Origin: a bacterium
GTDB lineage: Bacteria > Patescibacteriota > Patescibacteriia > Patescibacteriales > UBA12465
Assembly: GCA_021806615.1 (NCBI GenBank)
Contig: JAJZRB010000007.1
Coordinates: forward strand, 1-55,473
Length of the DNA: 55,473 nt
Reading direction: 5' to 3'
A model generated the notes under the pieces. The model did not search any database and had not been told where the DNA came from. It saw only the letters and a program-made list of their open reading frames with translations. Position numbers and translations under genes: made by a program. Of this stretch, positions 2,778 through 43,361 are shown piece after piece. How positions within the stretch are numbered: position 1 is the stretch's first letter; every line of letters begins with the position of its first letter.

Positions 2778-4568
2778 ATGACTGATAATAAGGCTAAAAA
2801 AATAGATATAGAAAGCATACCTTGGAAATTATTCTGGGCGGAATTATGGCGCTTTATGGAGCCTTTTCGGAAATTCTTTGCCGTCATCCTGACCTTTATT
2901 ATCATATCCGCGGCTTTGGATATCGCCTCGCCCTATATCTTGAAATTGGTCATTGACGGCTTGAACGGCTTCAACCTGAACGATCTTCCCTTATTGCTAC
3001 GGTTTATCGCCTTGTATTTCATATCGGAAGAGGTCAGCGTCGTCATCGGTTATTTCGGCGATCGGAAGATACTCCGCCTATTAGTGGATGTCGAATACTA
3101 TCTGGGCCTCAAGGCGCAGGAAAAATTAGTCGCTCTTAGCTTAGGCTATCACGAAAGAGAAAATACCGGCAGCAAGATAGTGCGCATCGAACGCGGCGTG
3201 GATAAGATCTCCGAATTCATAAACAATATCTGCTGGGAAGTGGCGCCGACCGTCATCCGCCTATTATTCACCCTCGCGGCTTTATTCTGGGCAGATTGGC
3301 GTATCGGCTTATCGTTCATTATCGTGGCGCCGCTTTGTATCACGGTCACCTATCTGGCCAATAAGCGGATGTACCCCATACGCAAGGAGATATATCGAGA
3401 CTATGAAACGGCGAGCGGCAAGATGGGGCAGGCGATAATAAATATCAACGCCGTCCAATCTTTCGTCCAGGAACGGCGCGAGCTATCGGAGTTTGATAAG
3501 ATCAAGGCTCATGTCCGCGATAATGAGGATAAGCAATGGGGCTGGATGATGAAGGTCGGCCTAGGCCGGAATTCCTTAGCTACGCTCGGACGAATAGCCG
3601 TCTTATTCCTCGGAGTTTATCTGGCCTATAAAGGCAGTATTACTATTGGCACCCTTATTTTCGCTTTTACTCTCAGCGAAAAATCTTACAGCTCTTTATT
3701 GCGCCTGTCTCGTTTCTATGACCGCGTAGAAGAGGGCCGGGAAGGAGTAAGCCGGCTCCTGGCCTTGTTCAAAGCGGAAAGCGAAATCGTTAATAAGCCC
3801 AGGGCGTATAAGCCGAAGAACATCGTTGGAGAAATAAGATTCGAGGACGTCGCTTTTTATTACGGCAGCAATGAGCGCCCGGCCGTCAGCAATTTGAATT
3901 TTAAGATAGATTCCGGCTGCATTACGGCTCTCGTCGGACCGTCGGGGGGCGGAAAGACGACAGTCGCCCGCCTCATTTATCGCCACTATGATCCGCAAGG
4001 CGGCCGGGTTCTTTTAGACGGCCGGGATTTGCGCGATTATGATCTGCATGCTTTTCGGAAATTCTTAGCCATCGTGCCGCAAGAAGTGGAAATATTCGAT
4101 CTGAGCGTGGCCGAAAATATCGCCTACGCCAAGCCGAACGCCAGCCAAAAGGAGATTGAAGCCGCCGCGCGCACCGCTAACGCCGCTGAGTTCATTGAAA
4201 AATTAGAAGAAGGCTATAAGACCATGGTCGGCGAACGGGGCATAAAACTGTCCGGCGGGCAAAGGCAGCGCCTCGGCATCGCCCGCGCCGTATTGGCCAA
4301 TCCTCGGATTTTGATTTTTGACGAAGCGACTTCTAATCTAGACAGCCAGAGCGAAGCTTTGATCCAGGACGCTATGGATAAGATAAGCCGCGATCGCTCG
4401 CTCATCATTATCGCGCACCGTTTAAGCACGATTAAGCGAGCCGACAAGATAATCGTGCTGGAAAACGGCCATGTCGCCGAGGTCGGCAGCCATCTGGAAT
4501 TAGCCCGGGTGACGGGCGGGCTATATGCTAAGCTCTTGAAATTGCAGGCTATGGGCGACGTGGACTGA
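2778..4568 (+). CDS. ABC transporter, fused permease/ATP-binding protein
   Basis: Walker A GPSGGGKTT, signature LSGGQRQRLGIARA, Walker B ILIFDEATSNLD, and an N-terminal TM region. Confidence 0.93.
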   Translation: MTDNKAKKIDIESIPWKLFWAELWRFMEPFRKFFAVILTFIIISAALDIASPYILKLVIDGLNGFNLNDLPLLLRFIALYFISEEVSVVIGYFGDRKILRLLVDVEYYLGLKAQEKLVALSLGYHERENTGSKIVRIERGVDKISEFINNICWEVAPTVIRLLFTLAALFWADWRIGLSFIIVAPLCITVTYLANKRMYPIRKEIYRDYETASGKMGQAIININAVQSFVQERRELSEFDKIKAHVRDNEDKQWGWMMKVGLGRNSLATLGRIAVLFLGVYLAYKGSITIGTLIFAFTLSEKSYSSLLRLSRFYDRVEEGREGVSRLLALFKAESEIVNKPRAYKPKNIVGEIRFEDVAFYYGSNERPAVSNLNFKIDSGCITALVGPSGGGKTTVARLIYRHYDPQGGRVLLDGRDLRDYDLHAFRKFLAIVPQEVEIFDLSVAENIAYAKPNASQKEIEAAARTANAAEFIEKLEEGYKTMVGERGIKLSGGQRQRLGIARAVLANPRILIFDEATSNLDSQSEALIQDAMDKISRDRSLIIIAHRLSTIKRADKIIVLENGHVAEVGSHLELARVTGGLYAKLLKLQAMGDVD

Positions 4569-4590
4569 TGACTTTTTCCTTGTTTTTCTT

Positions 4591-4596
4591 TATAAT
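4591..4596 (+). promoter_or_regulatory. Putative -10 element (TATAAT) 6 nt upstream of the murB ATG
   Basis: TATAAT-GAACCC-ATG read directly; spacing suggests leaderless initiation. Confidence 0.5.
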
Positions 4597-4602
4597 GAAC
4601 CC

Positions 4603-5622
4603 ATGTTAAAAATAGAAAGAAATAAAGAATTAGCTCCTTTCACGACTCTGCGCATCGGCGCGGCCGCCGAATTTTTCGCGGTCTTGAAAAGCCGGTCGGA
4701 TTTAGAGGCGGCGATTATCTGGGCCAAGGAACATAGGAAAAAGATCTGGATCTTGGGCGGCGGTTCCAACGTGCTCATTTCCCAGGAGGTGCGAGGATTG
4801 GTCCTGAAGAATGAGATTAAAGGTTCTGAAATCGTGGAGCGTAATGATGACTACGCTCTCGTGGAAGCTAAATCAGGCGAAATCTGGACTAAATTCGTCA
4901 ATTTTACGGTACAGCACGGCCTCTACGGACTAGAGAATCTATTCTTGATCTATGGGACGGTCGGCGCCGCGCCTGTCCAGAACATCGGCGCTTATGGCGT
5001 GGAACTGAAAGATGTCTTTTATCATTTGAAGGCGATTGATTTGAAAACCGGCCACGAAAAGATATTCTCCGCGCGCGATTGCCGGTTCGCCTATCGCGAC
5101 AGCATCTTCAAGCATCAGCTGCGGGGCCGCTACTTTATCTATTCGGTAACCGTCAAATTGAAGCGCCAGCCAGACTTCAAGTTAGATTACGGGTCTATCC
5201 GGGAAGAGCTCTTGAAACGGAATATCAAAGAGCCTCGTCTGCGCGATATAGTCAAGGTGATCGAAGAAATACGCAATGCGAAGCTGCCTAATCCGGCGTT
5301 AAGCCCCAATGCCGGTTCTTTTTTCAAGAATGTTGAAATTTCCCGGGCTAAATCCGAGGCGCTTTTAAAAAGATATCCTGACTTGCCGCATTTTTCGGCC
5401 TCAGGAGGCAAAGTGAAGATTCCGGCCGGCTGGCTGATTGAAAAGGCCGGATTCAGAGGGAAGAGGATCGGTCCGGTCGGCATGCATGATAAACAGGCCC
5501 TGGTTCTGGTGAACTATGACGGCGCTAGCGCTAAGCAAGTCCTGGCTTTCATCAAAAAAGTGAAGGCGGCGGTTAAGAAAAAGTTCGCTCTTGATTTGGA
5601 AGAAGAAGTTAATATATTATAA
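4603..5622 (+). CDS. murB: UDP-N-acetylenolpyruvoylglucosamine reductase
   Basis: LAPFTTLRIGAAAEF, WILGGGSNVLIS, GTVGAAPVQNIGAYGVE and NPALSPNAGSFFKNV motifs. Confidence 0.95.
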   Translation: MLKIERNKELAPFTTLRIGAAAEFFAVLKSRSDLEAAIIWAKEHRKKIWILGGGSNVLISQEVRGLVLKNEIKGSEIVERNDDYALVEAKSGEIWTKFVNFTVQHGLYGLENLFLIYGTVGAAPVQNIGAYGVELKDVFYHLKAIDLKTGHEKIFSARDCRFAYRDSIFKHQLRGRYFIYSVTVKLKRQPDFKLDYGSIREELLKRNIKEPRLRDIVKVIEEIRNAKLPNPALSPNAGSFFKNVEISRAKSEALLKRYPDLPHFSASGGKVKIPAGWLIEKAGFRGKRIGPVGMHDKQALVLVNYDGASAKQVLAFIKKVKAAVKKKFALDLEEEVNIL

Positions 5623-5627
5623 ATAAT

Positions 5628-7442
5628 ATGAATTCCAGAGAATTGCGCCAAAAATATTTAGATTTTTTCCTGGCTCGCGATCATGCCGTGATTTCCAGCG
5701 CGTCTTTGATTCCGGAAAACGATCCGACAGTCTTATTCACGACGGCCGGCATGCATCCTTTAGTCCCGTATTTATTGGGAGAAAAGCATCCGGCGGGAAC
5801 GCGTCTGACTGACGCGCAGAAGTGCATTAGGACCGGCGATATTGACGAGGTCGGCGATGCGACGCACCATACTTTTTTTGAAATGATGGGTAATTGGTCG
5901 CTGGGCGATTATTTCAAGAAAGAATCTATCGCCTATAGCTGGGAATTTCTAACGTCGCCGCAGTGGTTGAACCTTGATAAGAATCGCCTGGCGGTTTCGG
6001 TTTTCGCCGGCGACGGCGACGCCCCCTTCGATCAGGAAGCTTACGATATCTGGGCCGGAATTTTCCGTAATAATGATTTACCGTTAGATCGGATAGCTAA
6101 ATTGCCGAAAAAGAATAATTGGTGGGGGCCGGCCGGAACGACCGGGCCTTGCGGGCCGGACACGGAAATTTTTTACTGGGCGGGAGATCCTAGCAAAGTG
6201 CCGGCCGGGTTCAACGACGACAACGATTTATGGATAGAGATCTGGAATAACGTCTTCATGCAGTATAATAAGAATGCCGCCGGGCGATTTGAGCCGCTTG
6301 TCCAGAAGAACGTCGATACGGGCTTAGGATTAGAAAGAGTCCTCGCCGTCATGAACGGCTTAGCCGATAATTATCAGACCGACTTGTTCCGTAACATCAT
6401 CAGCAAAATAGAGGAGCTGAGCGGACGCCGATATGATGAGTCCCCGGAGATAACCAGGGCGATGCGCATCATTGCCGATCATCTGAAAGCGGCGACTTTC
6501 ATCATCAGCGATGATAAGGGGATAAGTCCTTCCAATACCGATCAAGGCTACGTCGTCCGTCGCCTTATCAGGCGCGCCATCCGCTATGGCAAACAGCTAG
6601 GCATTAAGATTCCTCTCTGGACCAAAGAGATCGCCTCGGTAGTCATTAGCGATTATCACGATATATATGGCGAATTGGGCAAGAACCGCCAATTGACTTT
6701 GGCCAGCCTTGATAAAGAAGAGGAAAAATTCAACCGTACCTTGGAAAAAGGCTTGGCCGAATTCTATAAATTATCGGGAGACATCAATGGCGTGACCGCC
6801 TTTACCCTGTATCAGAGCTATGGCTTTCCTTTAGAAATGACAGAGGAGCTAGCCGCTGAAAAAGGGATTAAGGTCGATCGCGACGGTTTTATGTCCGAAT
6901 TGAAGAAGCACCAGGACCTGTCGCGTACGGCTGCCGCAGGCAAATTCAAGGGCGGTTTAGCGGATGCCGGCGAAGAAACGACCAAGCTGCATACCGCCGC
7001 CCATCTGATGCTGGCCGCTTTGCGGCGGGTATTGGGCGATCATGTCGTCCAGAAGGGAAGCAATATCACCCCGGAAAGATTGCGTTTAGATTTTTCTCAT
7101 CCGGAAAAAATGACGCCGGAGAGTATCAAAGCGGTAGAAGATTTGGTCAACGGCGCCATCTCCAGCCATTATCCGGTTACTTGCGAAGAACTATCGTTGG
7201 CTGAGGCTAAGAATCGCGGCGCGATGGGCGTTTTTGATTCTAAATATGGTGAGCGCGTCAAGATTTATACTATCGCTCCTCTCCAGCCAGACGGACATCC
7301 TGATTTCAAACAGGCCTTTTCCCAAGAAATATGCGGCGGACCGCACGTGGAAAATACCGGCGTTCTCGGTCATTTTAAGATCCAGAAGGAAGAAGCTTCT
7401 AGTTCCGGCGTTCGCCGGATAAAGGCAATTTTAGAAAAATAA
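5628..7442 (+). CDS. alaS: Alanyl-tRNA synthetase, short form lacking the C-terminal DHHA1/C-Ala region
   Basis: Class II catalytic motifs (TTAGMHPLVPYLLG, GLGLERVLAVMNG) and editing-domain HTAAHLML...CGGPHV. ORF ends soon after the CxxPH motif. Confidence 0.95.
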   Translation: MNSRELRQKYLDFFLARDHAVISSASLIPENDPTVLFTTAGMHPLVPYLLGEKHPAGTRLTDAQKCIRTGDIDEVGDATHHTFFEMMGNWSLGDYFKKESIAYSWEFLTSPQWLNLDKNRLAVSVFAGDGDAPFDQEAYDIWAGIFRNNDLPLDRIAKLPKKNNWWGPAGTTGPCGPDTEIFYWAGDPSKVPAGFNDDNDLWIEIWNNVFMQYNKNAAGRFEPLVQKNVDTGLGLERVLAVMNGLADNYQTDLFRNIISKIEELSGRRYDESPEITRAMRIIADHLKAATFIISDDKGISPSNTDQGYVVRRLIRRAIRYGKQLGIKIPLWTKEIASVVISDYHDIYGELGKNRQLTLASLDKEEEKFNRTLEKGLAEFYKLSGDINGVTAFTLYQSYGFPLEMTEELAAEKGIKVDRDGFMSELKKHQDLSRTAAAGKFKGGLADAGEETTKLHTAAHLMLAALRRVLGDHVVQKGSNITPERLRLDFSHPEKMTPESIKAVEDLVNGAISSHYPVTCEELSLAEAKNRGAMGVFDSKYGERVKIYTIAPLQPDGHPDFKQAFSQEICGGPHVENTGVLGHFKIQKEEASSSGVRRIKAILEK

Positions 7443-7488
7443 GCTTAGGTTAGCTATTTTTTAATTGTTTTTTTTGGTCTTCAGACTA

Positions 7489-7517
7489 TTGACAACTTCC
7501 CGCCTTATCTCTATAAT
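7489..7517 (+). promoter_or_regulatory. Consensus sigma70-type promoter for the infA operon: TTGACA-N17-TATAAT
   Basis: Exact hexamers at 7489-7494 and 7512-7517 with a 17-nt spacer. Confidence 0.85.
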
Positions 7518-7569
7518 AGATTTATATTAAGATTATTATAAAAAATAGGATAAATAATTTTTAAAGAAT

Positions 7570-7606
7570 TTTGATAAAGTAATGATTATCTTTATCAAAT
7601 TTTTTT
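7570..7606 (+). terminator. Terminator-like hairpin in the infA leader (candidate attenuator)
   Basis: TTTGATAAAG (7570-7579) pairs perfectly with CTTTATCAAA (7590-7599), followed by a run of T just before the infA start. Confidence 0.65.
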
Positions 7607-7612
7607 GTGTTA

Positions 7613-7870
7613 ATGTCAAAAGACAGAGAAAATAACCAAGACAGTTCAGCCACTCTGAATGCGAAAGATTTCATTGAAGTGCAAGGGGAAGTATTGGAGC
7701 TGATGCCGGCGGCGACTTTTAAAGTTGCTCTTGAAAACGGGCATGAGATCCTAGCCCATTTGTCCGGCAAGATGCGGATGAATAAAATAAGGCTTTTGCC
7801 TGGCGACAAGGTCAAATTGCAAATCAGCCCCTACGATCTGACCAAGGGCCGGATAACTTACCGCCTCTAA
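7613..7870 (+). CDS. infA: Translation initiation factor IF-1
   Basis: [50 protein letters not shown] at 7613; a GTG at 7607 is the alternative. Confidence 0.95.
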
Positions 7871-7904
7871 AGGCTATAATTTATTTTTTTTAATCAACTA
7901 AGAT

Positions 7905-8018
7905 ATGAAAGTAAGAGCTAGCGCTAAGAAAATTTGCAAGGATTGCAAGGTCGTCCGTCGCGGCGGCCGCGTCCGCGTTATCTGCAAGAATCCCAAGCAT
8001 AAGCAGAGACAGGGTTAA
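7905..8018 (+). CDS. rpmJ: 50S ribosomal protein L36
   Basis: 37-aa ORF below track cutoff: [37 protein letters not shown]. Confidence 0.95.
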
Positions 8019-8048
8019 TTTATTATAAATATTTATTAATATTAAGAT

Positions 8049-8444
8049 ATGGCAGTAAGAATCGCGGGAGTCAATATCCCCAACGACAAGAGAATAGAAA
8101 TCGCCTTGACTTATATCCATGGCATCGGCCGGACCTCAGCCAATAAGATTCTGGTAGCGGCTAAGGTCGATAAAGACGTCCGGGTCAAGGACTTGAAAGA
8201 AGCTGAAGCTAACATTCTCCGGGAAATTGTAGAAAAAAAATATCTAGTAGAAGGAGATTTGCGCCGGGAAGTGGCCAGCAATATCAAGCGTCTCAGAGAA
8301 ATCGGCTGCTATCGCGGTTTGCGCCACTCTAAACATCTGCCGGTCCGCGGCCAGCGCACCAAGACCAATAGCCGGACAGTACGCGGCAATAAGCGCGTTA
8401 CGATGGGAAGCGGCAAGAGCAAGGCCGGCCTACAGAAAACCTAA
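8049..8444 (+). CDS. rpsM: 30S ribosomal protein S13
   Basis: [35 protein letters not shown]...[14 protein letters not shown]. Confidence 0.97.
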
Positions 8445-8458
8445 TTTAAACATATCAT

Positions 8459-9064
8459 ATGCCTGAAGAAGCAAAAAAAGAATTAGAGCCCGTTACGACG
8501 GGAGAAGCTATATCCAGCCCGGCCGGAGCCGTTAAGAATGGAGCCGTTAAAATGGAAGACGGCGAAGCGAAAGACGAAAAGGATGGAGTTGATTTTTCGT
8601 TTGATTCCGCTAGCGAGGAATTGCCGGAGGAAATCAAGCAGAAATTAGAAAAGAATAAAGCGGCGCGCGCTAAGAAGAAGCTAGTCAAGAAGAAAAAGAA
8701 AAAAACCGCTCGGATAGTCAAGATCGGACGCGCCTATATCCAAGCGACCTATAATAATACGATGATCACTCTGACCGATCCGGCTGGGGATGTCATTTCT
8801 TGGGCAAGCGCCGGTTTAGCCGGCTTTAAGGGAGCCAAGAAAGCGACTCCTTATGCCGCCCAGATAATCACTAAGATCGCTACCCAGAAAGCCCGTGAAG
8901 AATATGGCTTGGAAGAAGTAAGCGTTTTCGTCTCTGGCGTCGGTACCGGCCGCGAAGCGGCTATCCGCGCTTTGAATGCCAACGGTTTGAATGTCGTGGC
9001 TATTAAAGATACGACTTCGGTCCCGCATAATGGCTGCCGGCCGAAAAAACCGCGCCGAGTTTAA
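8459..9064 (+). CDS. rpsK: 30S ribosomal protein S11 with a long N-terminal extension
   Basis: C-terminal part ...[28 protein letters not shown]...[10 protein letters not shown] is canonical S11; roughly 80 aa acidic-then-Lys-rich extension precedes it. Confidence 0.96.
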
Positions 9065-9081
9065 ATAATTATTAAATACTT

Positions 9082-9711
9082 ATGGGCAGAAATATTGAAA
9101 ATAAATGCGAGCAGTGCCGCCGTAGCGGTGAAAAGCTTTTTTTGAAAGGTGAACGTTGCTATACGCCGAAATGCGCGATTATCAAGCGCAACTACGCGCC
9201 GGGTTTCCATGGCCCGAAAGGCCGCAAGCGTTTGAGCGATTATGGCTCTCAGCTCGCGGAAAAACAGAAAGCGAAGAAATTCTACGGCTTATTTGAAAAA
9301 CAATTCCGGCTGACTTTTGAAAAAGCCGCTAAGAAATCGGGCGATGCTGGCAAGAATTTTTTGCGCGCCTTAGAGATGCGGCTGGATAATGTCGTTTATC
9401 GCTTAGGCTGGGCGACTTCCCGCGCCGCCGCTCGTCAGCTCGTCAACCATGGCCATTTTACCGTTAACGGACGTAAGACTGATATTGCTTCATTCGCGGT
9501 TAAACCCGGTCAGTTGATCAAGCCGAAAAAAAGTAGCGAGACCAGCCCCTATTTTAAGAATATCATGGAAAATTTGAAGAAGGCGGATCGCCCGAGCTGG
9601 TTGAATTTAGACCAATCTAATTTAAGCGCTAAAGTCTTGCATGAACCGGTAGACAGCGACTTGCCGCAGAATTTAAACGTCCAGGTTATAATTGAATACT
9701 ACTCAAAATAA
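9082..9711 (+). CDS. rpsD: 30S ribosomal protein S4
   Basis: CEQCRRSGEKLFLKGERCYTPKCAI zinc site, then ALEMRLDNVVYRLGWATSRAAARQLVNHGHFTVNG. Confidence 0.97.
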   Translation: MGRNIENKCEQCRRSGEKLFLKGERCYTPKCAIIKRNYAPGFHGPKGRKRLSDYGSQLAEKQKAKKFYGLFEKQFRLTFEKAAKKSGDAGKNFLRALEMRLDNVVYRLGWATSRAAARQLVNHGHFTVNGRKTDIASFAVKPGQLIKPKKSSETSPYFKNIMENLKKADRPSWLNLDQSNLSAKVLHEPVDSDLPQNLNVQVIIEYYSK

Positions 9712-37517: not shown

Positions 37518-37823
37518 ATGACTAATAATTTTTCCCCGGCTTTAGAGCAATTCGTCAATCGTTTGCTCGCTGAAAAAAAATTATCTGATTTAGAGCCAGG
37601 CGTCCGCGATCAGGCCAAGGCCGATTTATTAGAGAAGGCGGAAGAGCGCGTTAAGGCCGCTATTTTCGCCAATATGCCAGCCGATAAATTAGCGGAATTT
37701 ACTGGGTTGATGGACAGCGGTGATGAAGCTAAATTACAAACCTTTATCCAAGAGGCTATTCCCAACTTGGAGCAGATCATCGCTCAGAGCTTGCTGGATT
37801 TTCGCGATACCTATCTCGGCTGA
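37518..37823 (+). CDS. Small helical protein, DUF5663-like
   Basis: 101 aa: FVNRLLAEKKLSDLEPGVRDQAKADLLEKAEERVKAAIFANMPADKLAEFTGLMDSGDEAKLQTFI. Confidence 0.7.
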   Translation: MTNNFSPALEQFVNRLLAEKKLSDLEPGVRDQAKADLLEKAEERVKAAIFANMPADKLAEFTGLMDSGDEAKLQTFIQEAIPNLEQIIAQSLLDFRDTYLG

Positions 37824-37829
37824 ACGGCT

Positions 37830-38009
37830 ATGTCATTATCCAACCAGGCCAAAATAAATCGTATCAACGACATTTATCAAGAATTTTTGCATAAAGTCAG
37901 AGAGATTGAAAGCGCGCGCGATCGCAAGATAGCCGCCCTCTTAGCCAGCGATGACGAGGCAAAGATCGCACGGATAAGGCAAGATTTAAAATCAAGATTT
38001 AAAGGATAA
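37830..38009 (+). CDS. Small coiled protein, 59 aa (below ORF-track cutoff)
   Basis: MSLSNQAKINRINDIYQEFLHKVREIESARDRKIAALLASDDEAKIARIRQDLKSRFKG, 6 nt after the preceding stop. Confidence 0.65.
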   Translation: MSLSNQAKINRINDIYQEFLHKVREIESARDRKIAALLASDDEAKIARIRQDLKSRFKG

Positions 38010-38036
38010 TCCGGTCTTCAGCACGGCCGGATTTTA
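38008..38036 (+). terminator. Hairpin between the small ORFs and the 1755-aa gene
   Basis: AATCCGG...CCGGATTTTA. Confidence 0.5.
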
Positions 38037-38048
38037 TATTTTAACTAT

Positions 38049-41000
38049 ATGCCAAACTTTTACGGAGGCTTGAAAAAATTTTTCAGTCTTAAGGAGGACA
38101 GCCGGAAGAAAGACGAGGCGGAAAAAAATAAGCTAGAAGAAGGACCTAGCCCGGAAGACGTAGCCCGGGAATTGGCGCTAGCCGAAGAAAAGATAAGAAA
38201 TCAAGAGCTTTCTCCCGATGCGAGCGGCGAACTGCCGGATGAGAAAAAACCGGCCGGCCAAAAAGTAGTCCAAGAGGCGGGTTCGGATCTGGCGGCCGCT
38301 AAAAAAGATTCTTTGCATAGTTTGGACCAGGCGGCTAAATTGACTTTCACCGCCGGCCTTGTTGACACTTCAGACATCATGCGCAGCCAAGCGCATCGCG
38401 CCGCTTCGGAGAAGATGACGGCAGACAAGAAGGAGTTGAGCGGTTTTAAAGGGATAGTCGCCAGGATCTGGAAATATAATTATGCCGAACAGTATTTGCA
38501 CGAGCAAGAACGCGTCAAGGCTAAGAAAAGGATATTAGCGGAAGGAAATGTCTATAGCAATGAAGGGCTGAGCGCGACTGAGAAAGCAGAAGCGAATAAA
38601 GCCTTCCAAGACGCGACCTTGACCAGGTTCACTTCGGAAATCAAGGGCTTAGTGGAAGAGAATCTGGGCGAGAAGCGCGAACAGCTGGCTGATACCGCGG
38701 CGGCTAAGGCGATCAAGTCCGACCTGAAGAAGATAATCAACGAATATGCCGATGGCCGGATAGACGAAGCGGGATTCGAGGGAGCAAAACGCGCCGTCTT
38801 TGAAAAAATACAGCAAAGCGGCGATCAGACGACGATCAAGCAGAGCGAAATGTTCGTCGATAATTTTCTGGCTATCGCCGATCAAGTCAAAGGGATCAAA
38901 GATAATATCCGCCAAGCCGCCGACCATCAGGAAAAATTAGCCGCCTTTGATTTCGATCTTAATCTCATCTTAGGCAAAGCGAAGGAAGGAATAAAGACGG
39001 AAACGCATTATAATCTAGCGGAAAAGACCGTAGAGAGATTGCGGCGCAGCAAATTAGGCAGCCTCATTAACGAGACGACTCTGGCGGCTTCGGTCGGCCT
39101 GGCTTACTCGGCCGGTTCCTTCTTATCCCAGCGCGTTTTACGTTCTAAAGCGATGGCAGTCGGAACTTTGGGCCTGGCCGTCGGCGTTTCCGGCGCTTAT
39201 TCTGGCATCAAGGAAAGCCAGATGCAGAAGAGGGAACGCCAAACCTTAGAAGCGCGCGCCGCTACAGGGGCCGTCGATCTCCAGGCAGAACAGCAGAAAT
39301 TAGGCCAGGAAATTACGGCCTTGAAAGAAGCCGAAAAGATGACGAGCGATAAGAAAGAATTAAGAAATATCAGCAATAGGCTAAAGAGCTTAGAGGGGGA
39401 ACGGAAGAAAATGGCTGAGCAGGAAAGCTTCCTATACCAGAAGAAGACCGCGCGGGAGCTCAGCGCTAATTTACAGCAGGCGCTTTATGAAGTCGATCCT
39501 AGCGGCCAAGCGAACGTTAAGAAATTTGATTCCGCCGCTGAGCTGGACGGCGTCCTGGACCAATTGGCGCAAATCGAGGCCCGTCTGGAGCTTTCTAATG
39601 AGAAAAAGATAGATCTGATAAGCTATTCCAGCTTAGCCAAAGTAGAAAGCGAACGCTTGGATTTGTTGCAAGCTAAATGGCAGGCTAAAGACAGGCTGCA
39701 ATCTTTGCCGGCTGATGTCAGCCGGGATTGGGAGAAACGCCTGAAGGATCTGACGAACCTCCATCGCCAAGTATTGCTGAAAAATGATGATGGCGGCATT
39801 GAAAGAAAAGATCAGCTTTTCAATAAATATAAAAACAAGGAGGTCCTCCGGAAAGTCGCGCAGAGCGCCGTCAGCGGCCTGACTATCGGCTTAGCGGCCC
39901 AGGAAGTTTTTGCCGCTTTCTCGGACAAACAGGAAGGCCTGGTAGAAAATATATTCAAAGGAGACAAGCGCATCCTAGGCGGGCGCGATACGGCGCTGGA
40001 AGCTTTACGCGGCTGGCTGACCGGCCATCACGCTGTCGGCGAGATGCATGAGGCGGCCATCGCTAACGGCTTAGTCAAACTGCCGGGAGATTGCAGCTGG
40101 CTGCATAATCCGGATGGCTCTTTCAATCTGGTGCGCGGCTCAGAAGTTTTGGCCGAACATTTGAAAGTAAATCCGGACGGCTCTTTGACCTCAGAGGCTA
40201 GGGATTTATTAGCGGCCGAGCATATCAATGTCGCCGCCAGCCAATATTTGATCGAACCGGGTCAAAATACCACGACCTTAACCCACCTCAGCCCTAATGA
40301 TTATATTGATAAGCATAGCGGAGATTTCAAGCAAGTCAGCCGCAGCTTATGGTATGCGAACGACACCCCGATGTATAAAGGGCCGGACGGCAAGCTGCAC
40401 GGAGCTGATTTGAATGAACTCAAGGAACAATGGGGCGGCGACCATGGCTCAGGCATCAATACTAAGACTAATTGCTATGAGATGACCGCTTTCAGGATGC
40501 GCCCGGACGGATCGTTTGAAACCGTAAACGGCACTAAACTGAATGAAAATGCCGCTGAATTGATCAAGGAAGGAAAAATGAGATTCCAGTTTTCTCTATC
40601 TGATGAAACCCAGAATCAGGTTATTGACCTGCCTGTCGATCCGGTCACCGGGAAAATAAGCGTTGAAAGGGGAAGCGAGCTCGGTAAGCTTTTATTCGGC
40701 GAGAAGAATAGCCACGGCGCCTTGCAGGCCGTCTTGAAAGCGAGATTCGCTGAAGTCGTGACTTCGGCCGGAGTCGGCCAGAATGGCGTGGAAAAAGTCC
40801 ATGTGTTTGCGACCGCTGTCGGCGAAGGGTTGAAAGACGCGACTGCCTCGGAAATAATCAATACGCCGCCGCAATTAGGGACGTCCACTATCCTCGATGT
40901 TCCGCGGGAATGGGATATCCCGCCAGTCATTCCAGTCGGTTGGCGGAAACCCCTGGGCAAGATACCGGGGGCCGGTTTTGAGTATAGCCTCTATCAGCCC

Positions 41001-43316
41001 GGTCCAGTGGATGAGAACCGCCTGAAAAAGATGGCGGAAAGACGTTCGGATACTTTGAATAGAGACCCGCGCGCCAAGCTTGACCACTACGAAGAGATTG
41101 AAAAATATTTTGCCAAGATGGATAAGGATTATCGGGAAAAGATCAAGGGTTTGGCGGCCGAAGCCGGAGCGATGAGCCCCGAGAACAAGGTCTCTATCTG
41201 CATCCCGGTAGCTGGCCATCAGGAAGGAGGCAGGATTTATGAATCATTGAAGAATTATACTTACCAGAAAGCCGAGCCGGAAGATTTTGAGATCTGCTTG
41301 ATGGTCAATCATCCGGATCACGATCAGGACGGGAAGGAGATCAAGCCTGATAAGACGCTGGCGGAGATAGAGCGCTTTAAAAAAGATTACCCGCAGATGA
41401 ATGTCAAAGTGATGTATAAAGTCATCCCTTATGAAGAGGTCAATATCGGCCTGGTGCGTAAGATGTTGAATGATGCCGTCCTTTATCGCCAGCATGAGCG
41501 AGGGAAAAAAGCTCCGGATTTGATCATGGTCAGTAACGATGCGGACAATCTGGGCATTGATCCGCGTTATGTCCAGAATTTCATCAAGAGATTCGCCGAT
41601 AATCCTAAACTGGACGGCGTACTCGGACAGTTAGATTGGGATCCGGAAGCCTATACTAAATATCCGTTGATCCATATTGGCACCCGTTTATTCCAATACT
41701 ATTCCGGCCTGGGGCGCAAGAATCGTGGCGGAATCGTTTCTAGCGGTGCCAATTTCGCTTTTAAATCAAGCATCTACGCCGGTATCGGCGGCTATTTAGA
41801 CGATGTCCAAGGAGGGGAAGATGTCGCTATCGGCCAGGCGATCTCTTTAGCCCGCGGCGATACTTATGAAACCCAGCGCCACGGCGGATCAGCTTCGCGG
41901 CTCTTCACTTCCGCCCGCCGGGCCATAGATGTCTTGAATAAATTCAATCTATCCCCGGTAGAACAGTGGGATAAAGGTTTCAGCGCTTTTGACGATGAGA
42001 TACGCAAGATGGACCTAAATAGCTTGGCCGGCGAGAAGATCGATTATCGCGATCCCAAATTTTTAGCGAAATTCAAGATCGGCTTGGAGCATATCATCAA
42101 TCAGACCCTGAATGTCTATGAGCGCGGGGAGAAATTAGGCAAAGGCCATAGGACCTATCGCGAGGAGATTATCGGACGTTTAGGCATCAAATATAAGCTT
42201 GACGATAAAGGTAATGTGGTGATTACCGATATGTCCAAATTAGTGAAGGGCTTGGAGACTTATCAGAAAGAAGGGATCCTGCAGCGCGACGCCCGATCCG
42301 GCAAGCTTAAGCCGGCGGAAAGATTGAAGAAGATGCGCGCGGCGCGCCAGAGCGTAGAGGCAGGAGGAGAAAAGCCCGCTCCAGAGGAAAGCGCCTTAGC
42401 CAAAGAAAATGACGCCTCCCTGAAGAAATTCTATGAAGAGGGGAAGAGGATAATAGACGTCAGTTTGACCGCGCCCGCCATTAAGGAAATCAAGGCCGGA
42501 GAAAAACAAAGCGATCTGGACGGCGAATATGTCCGGCGCGATAATGAAATAATCTCCGAAGGCGAAACCGGACGGGTCGTAGCCGGTTATGACAAGGCGA
42601 CGCAAGAGCCGGTGGTCATCAAGGAAAGTCCGAAAAGCAAGAAGAAGAAATTGGATCCGGAAAAGTATTTATTAGATCGCGGCTTCAGTGATCCTGCCCT
42701 GGCCTTGCCTCGCAAGAGGCTGGAACGAGGCCAGGAAATAATCAAAGTCTATCAGGCGGCGGAAACTGACCTGGAACATTATTTAGAGAGTTACCATAAG
42801 CTAGAGCCGAAAGCGGCCCTAGAAATAATCATCCGTCTAAGCGATGCCGCTCGTCAGCTGCACCGCCTAGATGTTGTCCATGGCGATATCGCGCCGAGCA
42901 ATGTCCTGTTATTTCCCGACGGCGCCAAGCTCGGGGATTTAGATGATTCTTATGTCCATGATTTCATAAAGACCGGCAATAGCGGCAATCGCTTCATCAT
43001 GGCGCCAGAGATGTTCGCCGGAGAAGGACAGAATAAGTTCGATAAGACTGTAGATATTTATGCCTTATCAGCCGATCTATACTATATGCTCGTCGGACGC
43101 TGGCCGCACCAGATCGAGGAAAAGGGATTGACCCCGGAAGCCAAACAGGAGAAATATAAAGAATTGCATGAGACGGAAGAAATAAGCTACCCGGATGATA
43201 TCCCGCCGGTTTTACGTCCTATCTTAGCCAGAGGCTTGGCTGTCAGCCCATCCGGACGATATCAGAGCATAGACTACCTGTTGAAAGATCTCCTGTCGGC
43301 TTATAACAGTCTTTAG
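38049..43316 (+). CDS. 1755-aa protein: N-terminal coiled/hydrophobic region, GT2-like glycosyltransferase domain, C-terminal Ser/Thr-kinase-like domain
   Basis: GT2-like VSICIPVAGHQEGG...LIMVSNDADN...GGEDVAIGQAI; kinase-like SEGETGRVVAGYD, VVIKES, VVHGDIAPSNVLLFPDGAKLGDLDD, MAPEMF. Confidence 0.85.
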   Translation: MPNFYGGLKKFFSLKEDSRKKDEAEKNKLEEGPSPEDVARELALAEEKIRNQELSPDASGELPDEKKPAGQKVVQEAGSDLAAAKKDSLHSLDQAAKLTFTAGLVDTSDIMRSQAHRAASEKMTADKKELSGFKGIVARIWKYNYAEQYLHEQERVKAKKRILAEGNVYSNEGLSATEKAEANKAFQDATLTRFTSEIKGLVEENLGEKREQLADTAAAKAIKSDLKKIINEYADGRIDEAGFEGAKRAVFEKIQQSGDQTTIKQSEMFVDNFLAIADQVKGIKDNIRQAADHQEKLAAFDFDLNLILGKAKEGIKTETHYNLAEKTVERLRRSKLGSLINETTLAASVGLAYSAGSFLSQRVLRSKAMAVGTLGLAVGVSGAYSGIKESQMQKRERQTLEARAATGAVDLQAEQQKLGQEITALKEAEKMTSDKKELRNISNRLKSLEGERKKMAEQESFLYQKKTARELSANLQQALYEVDPSGQANVKKFDSAAELDGVLDQLAQIEARLELSNEKKIDLISYSSLAKVESERLDLLQAKWQAKDRLQSLPADVSRDWEKRLKDLTNLHRQVLLKNDDGGIERKDQLFNKYKNKEVLRKVAQSAVSGLTIGLAAQEVFAAFSDKQEGLVENIFKGDKRILGGRDTALEALRGWLTGHHAVGEMHEAAIANGLVKLPGDCSWLHNPDGSFNLVRGSEVLAEHLKVNPDGSLTSEARDLLAAEHINVAASQYLIEPGQNTTTLTHLSPNDYIDKHSGDFKQVSRSLWYANDTPMYKGPDGKLHGADLNELKEQWGGDHGSGINTKTNCYEMTAFRMRPDGSFETVNGTKLNENAAELIKEGKMRFQFSLSDETQNQVIDLPVDPVTGKISVERGSELGKLLFGEKNSHGALQAVLKARFAEVVTSAGVGQNGVEKVHVFATAVGEGLKDATASEIINTPPQLGTSTILDVPREWDIPPVIPVGWRKPLGKIPGAGFEYSLYQPGPVDENRLKKMAERRSDTLNRDPRAKLDHYEEIEKYFAKMDKDYREKIKGLAAEAGAMSPENKVSICIPVAGHQEGGRIYESLKNYTYQKAEPEDFEICLMVNHPDHDQDGKEIKPDKTLAEIERFKKDYPQMNVKVMYKVIPYEEVNIGLVRKMLNDAVLYRQHERGKKAPDLIMVSNDADNLGIDPRYVQNFIKRFADNPKLDGVLGQLDWDPEAYTKYPLIHIGTRLFQYYSGLGRKNRGGIVSSGANFAFKSSIYAGIGGYLDDVQGGEDVAIGQAISLARGDTYETQRHGGSASRLFTSARRAIDVLNKFNLSPVEQWDKGFSAFDDEIRKMDLNSLAGEKIDYRDPKFLAKFKIGLEHIINQTLNVYERGEKLGKGHRTYREEIIGRLGIKYKLDDKGNVVITDMSKLVKGLETYQKEGILQRDARSGKLKPAERLKKMRAARQSVEAGGEKPAPEESALAKENDASLKKFYEEGKRIIDVSLTAPAIKEIKAGEKQSDLDGEYVRRDNEIISEGETGRVVAGYDKATQEPVVIKESPKSKKKKLDPEKYLLDRGFSDPALALPRKRLERGQEIIKVYQAAETDLEHYLESYHKLEPKAALEIIIRLSDAARQLHRLDVVHGDIAPSNVLLFPDGAKLGDLDDSYVHDFIKTGNSGNRFIMAPEMFAGEGQNKFDKTVDIYALSADLYYMLVGRWPHQIEEKGLTPEAKQEKYKELHETEEISYPDDIPPVLRPILARGLAVSPSGRYQSIDYLLKDLLSAYNSL

Positions 43317-43334
43317 TATTTTACGCGGCATATT

Positions 43335-43361
43335 AAAATCGGCTTAATCAGCCGATTTTTT
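43335..43361 (+). terminator. Terminator after the 1755-aa gene
   Basis: AAAATCGGCT-TAATC-AGCCGATTTTTT. Confidence 0.88.

Follow-up and report, generated by a model that had tools for sequence, protein, structure and literature searches.

Does a single patescibacterial protein carry both a glycosyltransferase and a protein kinase, and what would be gained by joining the two? The question is raised by a giant gene at positions 38049-43316 of the DNA analysed here (the window, 55,473 nucleotides), which is a whole contig of an 847-kb genome that is 95% complete. A sequence-only reading had described the gene as one uninterrupted frame, in which a GT2-like domain is followed by a kinase-like C-terminus, and had suggested that the product is a glycan-synthesis enzyme whose activity or partners are controlled by a covalently attached kinase. 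The features needed below are as follows.

37518-37823, + strand: DUF5663 protein of 101 aa, the constant upstream partner of such giants (Pfam PF18908, 3.9e-10)
37830-38009, + strand: charged helical ORF of 59 aa, possibly a gene, between the DUF5663 gene and the giant gene
38008-38033, + strand: intrinsic-terminator-like hairpin directly 5' of the giant gene (consensus scan; weak, shuffled sequences give similar numbers)
38049-43316, + strand: giant gene, in the order N, M, GT2, linker, kinase (single-frame ORF and family HMMs)
38337-39731, + strand: N region, residues 97-561, mostly helical (family HMM, AF2 model)
39888-40979, + strand: M region, residues 614-977, beta-rich (family HMM, alignment, AF2 model)
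41166-42308, + strand: GT2-type glycosyltransferase domain, residues ~1040-1420, with DAD at 1164-1166 and ED at 1257-1258 (AF2 and Foldseek)
42309-42473, + strand: K/A/E/P-rich linker and site of the gene junction, outside the family HMMs; two genes meet here in the related genome G084
42474-43313, + strand: Hanks-type Ser/Thr kinase domain, residues 1476-1755 (Pfam, PHROG, motif positions)
43335-43359, + strand: intrinsic-terminator-like hairpin directly 3' of the giant gene (consensus scan; weak)

The reading frame and its two enzymatic domains

The giant ORF runs from ATG to stop over 1755 aa with no internal stop, as had been claimed. When the positions of the motifs quoted by the sequence-only reading were checked, all of them were in place: VSICIPVAGHQEGG (41190-41231), SNDADN (41532-41549), QGGEDVAIGQA (41808-41840), VVIKES (42612-42629), VVHGDIAPSN (42873-42902), GDLDD (42933-42947), and MAPE (42999-43010). 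The two hydrophobic stretches of that reading are there (~39075-39206, a glycine-rich hairpin of the N region, and ~39867-39908), but they are weakly hydrophobic and fall below a simple transmembrane threshold. Hence, membrane insertion is not supported for this protein. The GC content of the gene (0.49-0.52) is like that of its neighbours, composition being uninformative on recent foreign DNA. It may be noted that the terminator-like hairpins on either side would make the giant gene its own transcription unit; the counts of such hairpins do not clearly exceed those of shuffled sequences.

The GT2 domain was hardly visible to sequence models. In the Pfam search, the window protein had no GT2 match; Glyco_trans_2_3 matched five of ten family members (best E 0.0016), and the best Pfam GT2 score among members was that of L090 (1.2e-5, 25.6 bits against a cut-off of 27). 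An AF2 model was built from 14 sequences, with confidence blocks mostly near 90 and some loops lower. When this model was compared with the PDB by Foldseek, all 50 of the 50 best matches were glycosyltransferases, nearly all of GT2 type. The mannosyltransferase PcManGT came out best (E 1.7e-8), and hyaluronan synthases, TarS, and TarP were also matched. D1164 and D1166, which form the DxD-like metal and nucleotide site, are invariant in the 14 members. In the ED motif (catalytic base), D1258 is likewise present in 14/14, while E1257 is kept in ten and replaced by A in three and by D in one. The domain scan thus gave no Pfam match and the model gave a GT2-type fold; together with the invariant aspartates, the latter bears out the GT2-like assignment, which is almost certainly correct. 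Since fold and aspartates (D1164, D1166, D1258) agree, the modelled domain is likely to be a working enzyme.

With PcManGT (6yv7), TarS (5tzi), TarP, and hyaluronan synthase, the domain has in common the GT-A fold, the DxD-type aspartates, and a GGxxxxxxxGGEDxxxG-type motif. It differs from them in being only 10-17% identical and hardly detected by Pfam models, in showing no transmembrane synthase part, and in being joined to the N and M regions and, in one case, to a kinase.

The C-terminal domain was recognized readily. Pkinase (PF00069) matched residues 1499-1739 with an E value of 1.4e-17 (score 64.4 bits, cut-off 31.7; positions 4-253 of 263 of the profile), and the serine-threonine kinase family PHROG 2361 was matched at 5.2e-23. 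By sequence, the nearest solved structures are StkP Ser/Thr kinases. The residues said to be retained are indeed present: K1525 (the Lys of VVIK), HGD at 1611-1613 with the HxD aspartate D1613, N1618, DLD at 1630-1632 in place of DFG with the metal-binding D1630, and APE at 1652-1654. The glycine-rich loop is degenerate and reads GETGRVV. We have very little doubt about the kinase assignment, and phosphorylation of protein Ser/Thr residues would be predicted from it. A structure model of the kinase half was built without relatives, the alignment rows being out of register with the fusion; it was poor and was not used as evidence.

Like StkP and PknB, the domain is a Pkinase domain with the catalytic Lys, HxD, Asn, Asp, and APE; unlike them, it carries HGD and DLD motifs, lacks a PASTA sensor domain, is fused to a glycosyltransferase, and falls with its G084 counterpart into a clade of its own. 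LanL, the class IV lanthionine synthetase, also has a kinase domain within a multi-domain enzyme, and its model matches the window kinase at 4.2e-12. The window protein, however, scores 45 bits against the family cut-off of 650 and has neither lyase nor cyclase domain. No Pkinase match other than this kinase occurs in the window's genome (G000), and the 12 congeners sampled lack one. PP2C_2 phosphatase was found neither in G000 nor in G084.

Fused and split forms of the gene pair

The best matches of the window protein were two separate genes of G084, a genome of the same order and another family. There, a giant of 1447 aa with N, M, and GT2 is followed on the same strand, 45 bp downstream, by a kinase gene of 308 aa. 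The giant parts are 41% identical and the kinases 48% identical. The G084 kinase keeps the catalytic Lys, the HxD Asp, the Asn, and the metal Asp; it has PPE in place of APE, DFD where the window has DLD, and GDTKVF in the glycine-rich loop region, with the second glycine lost. In the kinase tree, the two formed their own clade (100/100) on a long stem. In the tree of the non-kinase part, the nearest relative was not firmly placed, G084 being the closest row. As the same GT2 giant and the same kinase lie side by side in G084, the window gene is this pair in fused form.

An assembly or frame error joining two neighbouring genes would also yield such a frame, and G084, where the two are neighbouring but separate genes that share a frame, could be taken to favour it. 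The window linker, however, is open over 55 codons with zero stops, and G084 has several stops in its 45-bp gap (TAA, TAG, TAA, TAA) and a different Pro/Lys-rich tail of ~170 aa on its giant, which is missing from the window protein. A single base error would not turn one form into the other, which makes an artefact extremely improbable; since that tail is missing, the loss of a stop codon would not by itself account for the window form. We are thus as good as certain that the fusion is real. Within the linker coding sequence, AGGAGGAG at 42360-42372 is Shine-Dalgarno-like; it is perhaps a relic of the kinase gene start and may be a chance occurrence.

The fusion is also rare. A search for orthologues with the same domain order found no second fusion and one close case, that of G084, split into adjacent genes. 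Among the family members inspected, this kinase lies near the giant gene only in the window and in G084, and elsewhere in 380 genomes of the phylum no close homologue of this kinase subfamily was found. A literature search, with thin coverage of subscription papers and preprints, returned nothing relevant on glycosyltransferase-kinase fusions like this one. As far as the sequence tree goes, the direction of the event (fusion or fission) is not polarised. The adjacency of the two genes in an independent genome supports a functional link between GT2 giant and kinase, a predicted link which, with one fused and one adjacent case, rests on two genomes.

The N/M family, its tails and the DUF5663 partner

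Thirty-two loci were scanned with profiles for N, M, GT2, and kinase. N and M co-occur in nearly all of them, and GT2 follows in about half. M was found in 19/380 genomes of a phylum sample and in 10/381 of a class sample; one relative of the window protein comes from a Candidatus Uhrbacteria MAG (L006). In the AF2 model of N and M, the mean pLDDT was 78.6, and M ends in a conserved PPxIPxxxRxPLE-type motif. A known fold for N/M was rejected, as searches of Pfam, PDB sequence profiles, PDB folds, and viral folds gave nothing credible. A viral origin was also rejected: a pattern scan of IMG/VR contained no N/M relative, and phage kinases are only ~26-30% identical to the window kinase. For plasmid kinases, the identity is ~28-32%.

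The C-termini of this family vary. A PP2C phosphatase tail was found in L086 (35.7 bits, cut-off 24), and a GT9-type tail in the second ORF of L101 (34.1 bits, cut-off 22), the latter being sub-threshold in L084. The tail of L098 gave a sub-threshold DnaJ match. Judged by these profiles, N and M define a family seen across Patescibacteria, in which the C-terminus is GT2, GT2 with kinase, PP2C, or GT9-type. Three loci deserve separate mention. The L086 protein (3075-9389, G442; 2105 aa), with its C-terminal phosphatase, is a counterpart of the kinase-tailed window protein. In L101 (3309-10320, G632), the N/M protein extends over two overlapping ORFs, and the GT9-type (heptosyltransferase) domain of the second is above the Pfam cut-off. 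In L054 (5200-11234, G351), an N/M protein has lost most of the GT2 domain, and an ORF of 835 aa that carries a HAD hydrolase domain comes next without a gap.

The DUF5663 gene upstream of the window giant scored 40.6 bits with PF18908 (cut-off 23.7). By hand count, such a gene lies directly upstream on the same strand, within ~230 bp, in 27 of the 30 family loci with enough sequence; L052 and L097 were omitted as contig ends, and L020, L088, and L100 are the exceptions. The 59-aa ORF of the window is missing at the G084 locus, where the gap between DUF5663 gene and giant is 12 bp. The domain's own Pfam model found it in 35/192 genomes of a class sample and in 0/14 control genomes. When DUF5663 genes were picked independently, an ORF of at least 800 aa, and up to 2496 aa, followed within ~260 bp in 27 of 34 (hand count of distinct genes; one doubly fetched gene was counted once and contig-end cases were left out). 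Other small genes were followed by a giant ORF in 0/20 cases in the window and 0/21 in congeners. We are accordingly confident that the cassette of DUF5663 and giant is real. Most giants behind the independently picked genes have no profile similarity to N/M, and among 25 scanned none had a Pfam domain above cut-off. Profile iteration gave no remote link to N/M; a BLAST network joined some of them weakly. DUF5663 was not named in the literature searched, in which subscription papers and preprints are thinly covered.

In Patescibacteria (the window, L124-L160), this small helical protein marks giant ORFs of 800-2500 aa directly downstream. The cassette can be multi-copy: G198 has four DUF5663 matches (L158, L159, L160, L084), most of them followed by long ORFs.

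In the window, the Pfam neighbours of the cassette are RecO, RuvX, AspS, an AsnS-like protein, and DUF5671, and no immunity or secretion gene was seen beside the giant. RecO and AspS adjoin, with nothing sizeable between, in three congeners (L119, L121, L123); in G005, DUF5663 and a different giant of 1265 aa occupy the site (L120, 3242-7396). At this site, the cassette comes, goes, or is replaced by another.

Possible roles of the fused protein

The best explanation, which we regard as evenly poised between right and wrong, is a fusion of a Patescibacteria-specific N, M, and GT2 giant with a dedicated Ser/Thr-type kinase; the giant would be the second gene of a recurrent DUF5663 cassette, with N/M as a constant chassis and an exchanged tail enzyme. 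DUF5663, acting as a partner or chaperone, would bind the N region, and N/M, with DUF5663, would dock the protein at the membrane or at a shared assembly. The GT2 domain would take sugar from a nucleotide donor and attach it to an acceptor that N/M holds. The kinase, being tethered, might phosphorylate the giant itself, the acceptor, or a partner in the same assembly, and tethering would bring phosphorylation and glycosylation to one place. The degenerate glycine-rich loop, DLD or DFD for DFG, and the missing PP2C_2 in both genomes speak against this explanation.

The same degenerate loop, with DLD for DFG, would suit a pseudokinase or scaffold, GT2 being then the only catalytic domain; as neither member has lost the catalytic Lys, the HxD Asp, the Asn, or the metal-binding Asp, this is very unlikely. 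If the fused kinase instead phosphorylated the sugar added by GT2, or the growing glycan, a phosphorylated surface glycan would result. WaaP phosphorylates a lipopolysaccharide sugar, and POMK and FAM20B act likewise on glycans in animals. Such a role is suggested by a Kdo/WaaP match (PF06293) at residues 1573-1625, which is sub-threshold (E 0.00092, 19.1 against 21.3 bits) and covers 53 residues only, by HGD for HRD and DLD/DFD for DFG, and by the kinase being the sole one of a genome without PP2C_2. Pkinase, however, gives a much stronger match that spans the entire domain, the PDB entries matched by sequence are protein kinases (StkP among them), and both the APE motif and the C-lobe belong to the protein-kinase type, so that we consider a glycan kinase unlikely.

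The cassette could also deliver an effector, with DUF5663 as export chaperone and the giant carrying an interchangeable enzymatic tail (here GT and kinase) into the cell that hosts the Patescibacterium. LXG-type polymorphic toxins have small helical partner genes. As in the window cassette, such a gene immediately precedes that of a long helical protein whose C-terminal enzyme is exchangeable. The constant upstream gene, the hypervariable giant with its exchanged tails, and the patchy presence at the RecO-AspS site agree with delivery. On the other side, the window has no LXG domain match and no visible T7SS, secretion, or immunity gene, the tails are not classical toxins, no classical signal peptide is visible at the N-terminus, and conservation is higher in GT2 (44-58% to near relatives), whereas the end of a typical toxin is variable. 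On balance, delivery seems rather unlikely.

Returning to the fusion of giant and dedicated kinase, both domains of the supposed glycan-synthesis enzyme are present, and the adjacent genes of G084 support a functional link between them. The N/M family, DUF5663, and the exchangeable tails had been missed by the sequence-only reading. Kinase control of the glycosyltransferase is plausible though unproven; the kinase might instead act on a glycan, on the N-terminal region, or on some third protein, and any one biochemical role is better doubted than assumed.

Patescibacteria have very small genomes, yet they spend several kilobases on these giants. Tentatively, and with somewhat more doubt than belief, DUF5663 and giant may form an undescribed two-gene system across Patescibacteria, in which the small adaptor stays constant and the giant evolves fast and swaps its enzymatic tails (glycosyltransferases, kinase, phosphatase) so as to modify the envelope or host cell; the window giant would then have a two-enzyme tail, joined by fusion with the neighbouring kinase gene. 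The fused gene and its split form in a relative are a natural experiment that ties the kinase to the glycosyltransferase and names a testable partner pair, and DUF5663 offers a handle for finding giants too diverged to be recognized by their own sequence.
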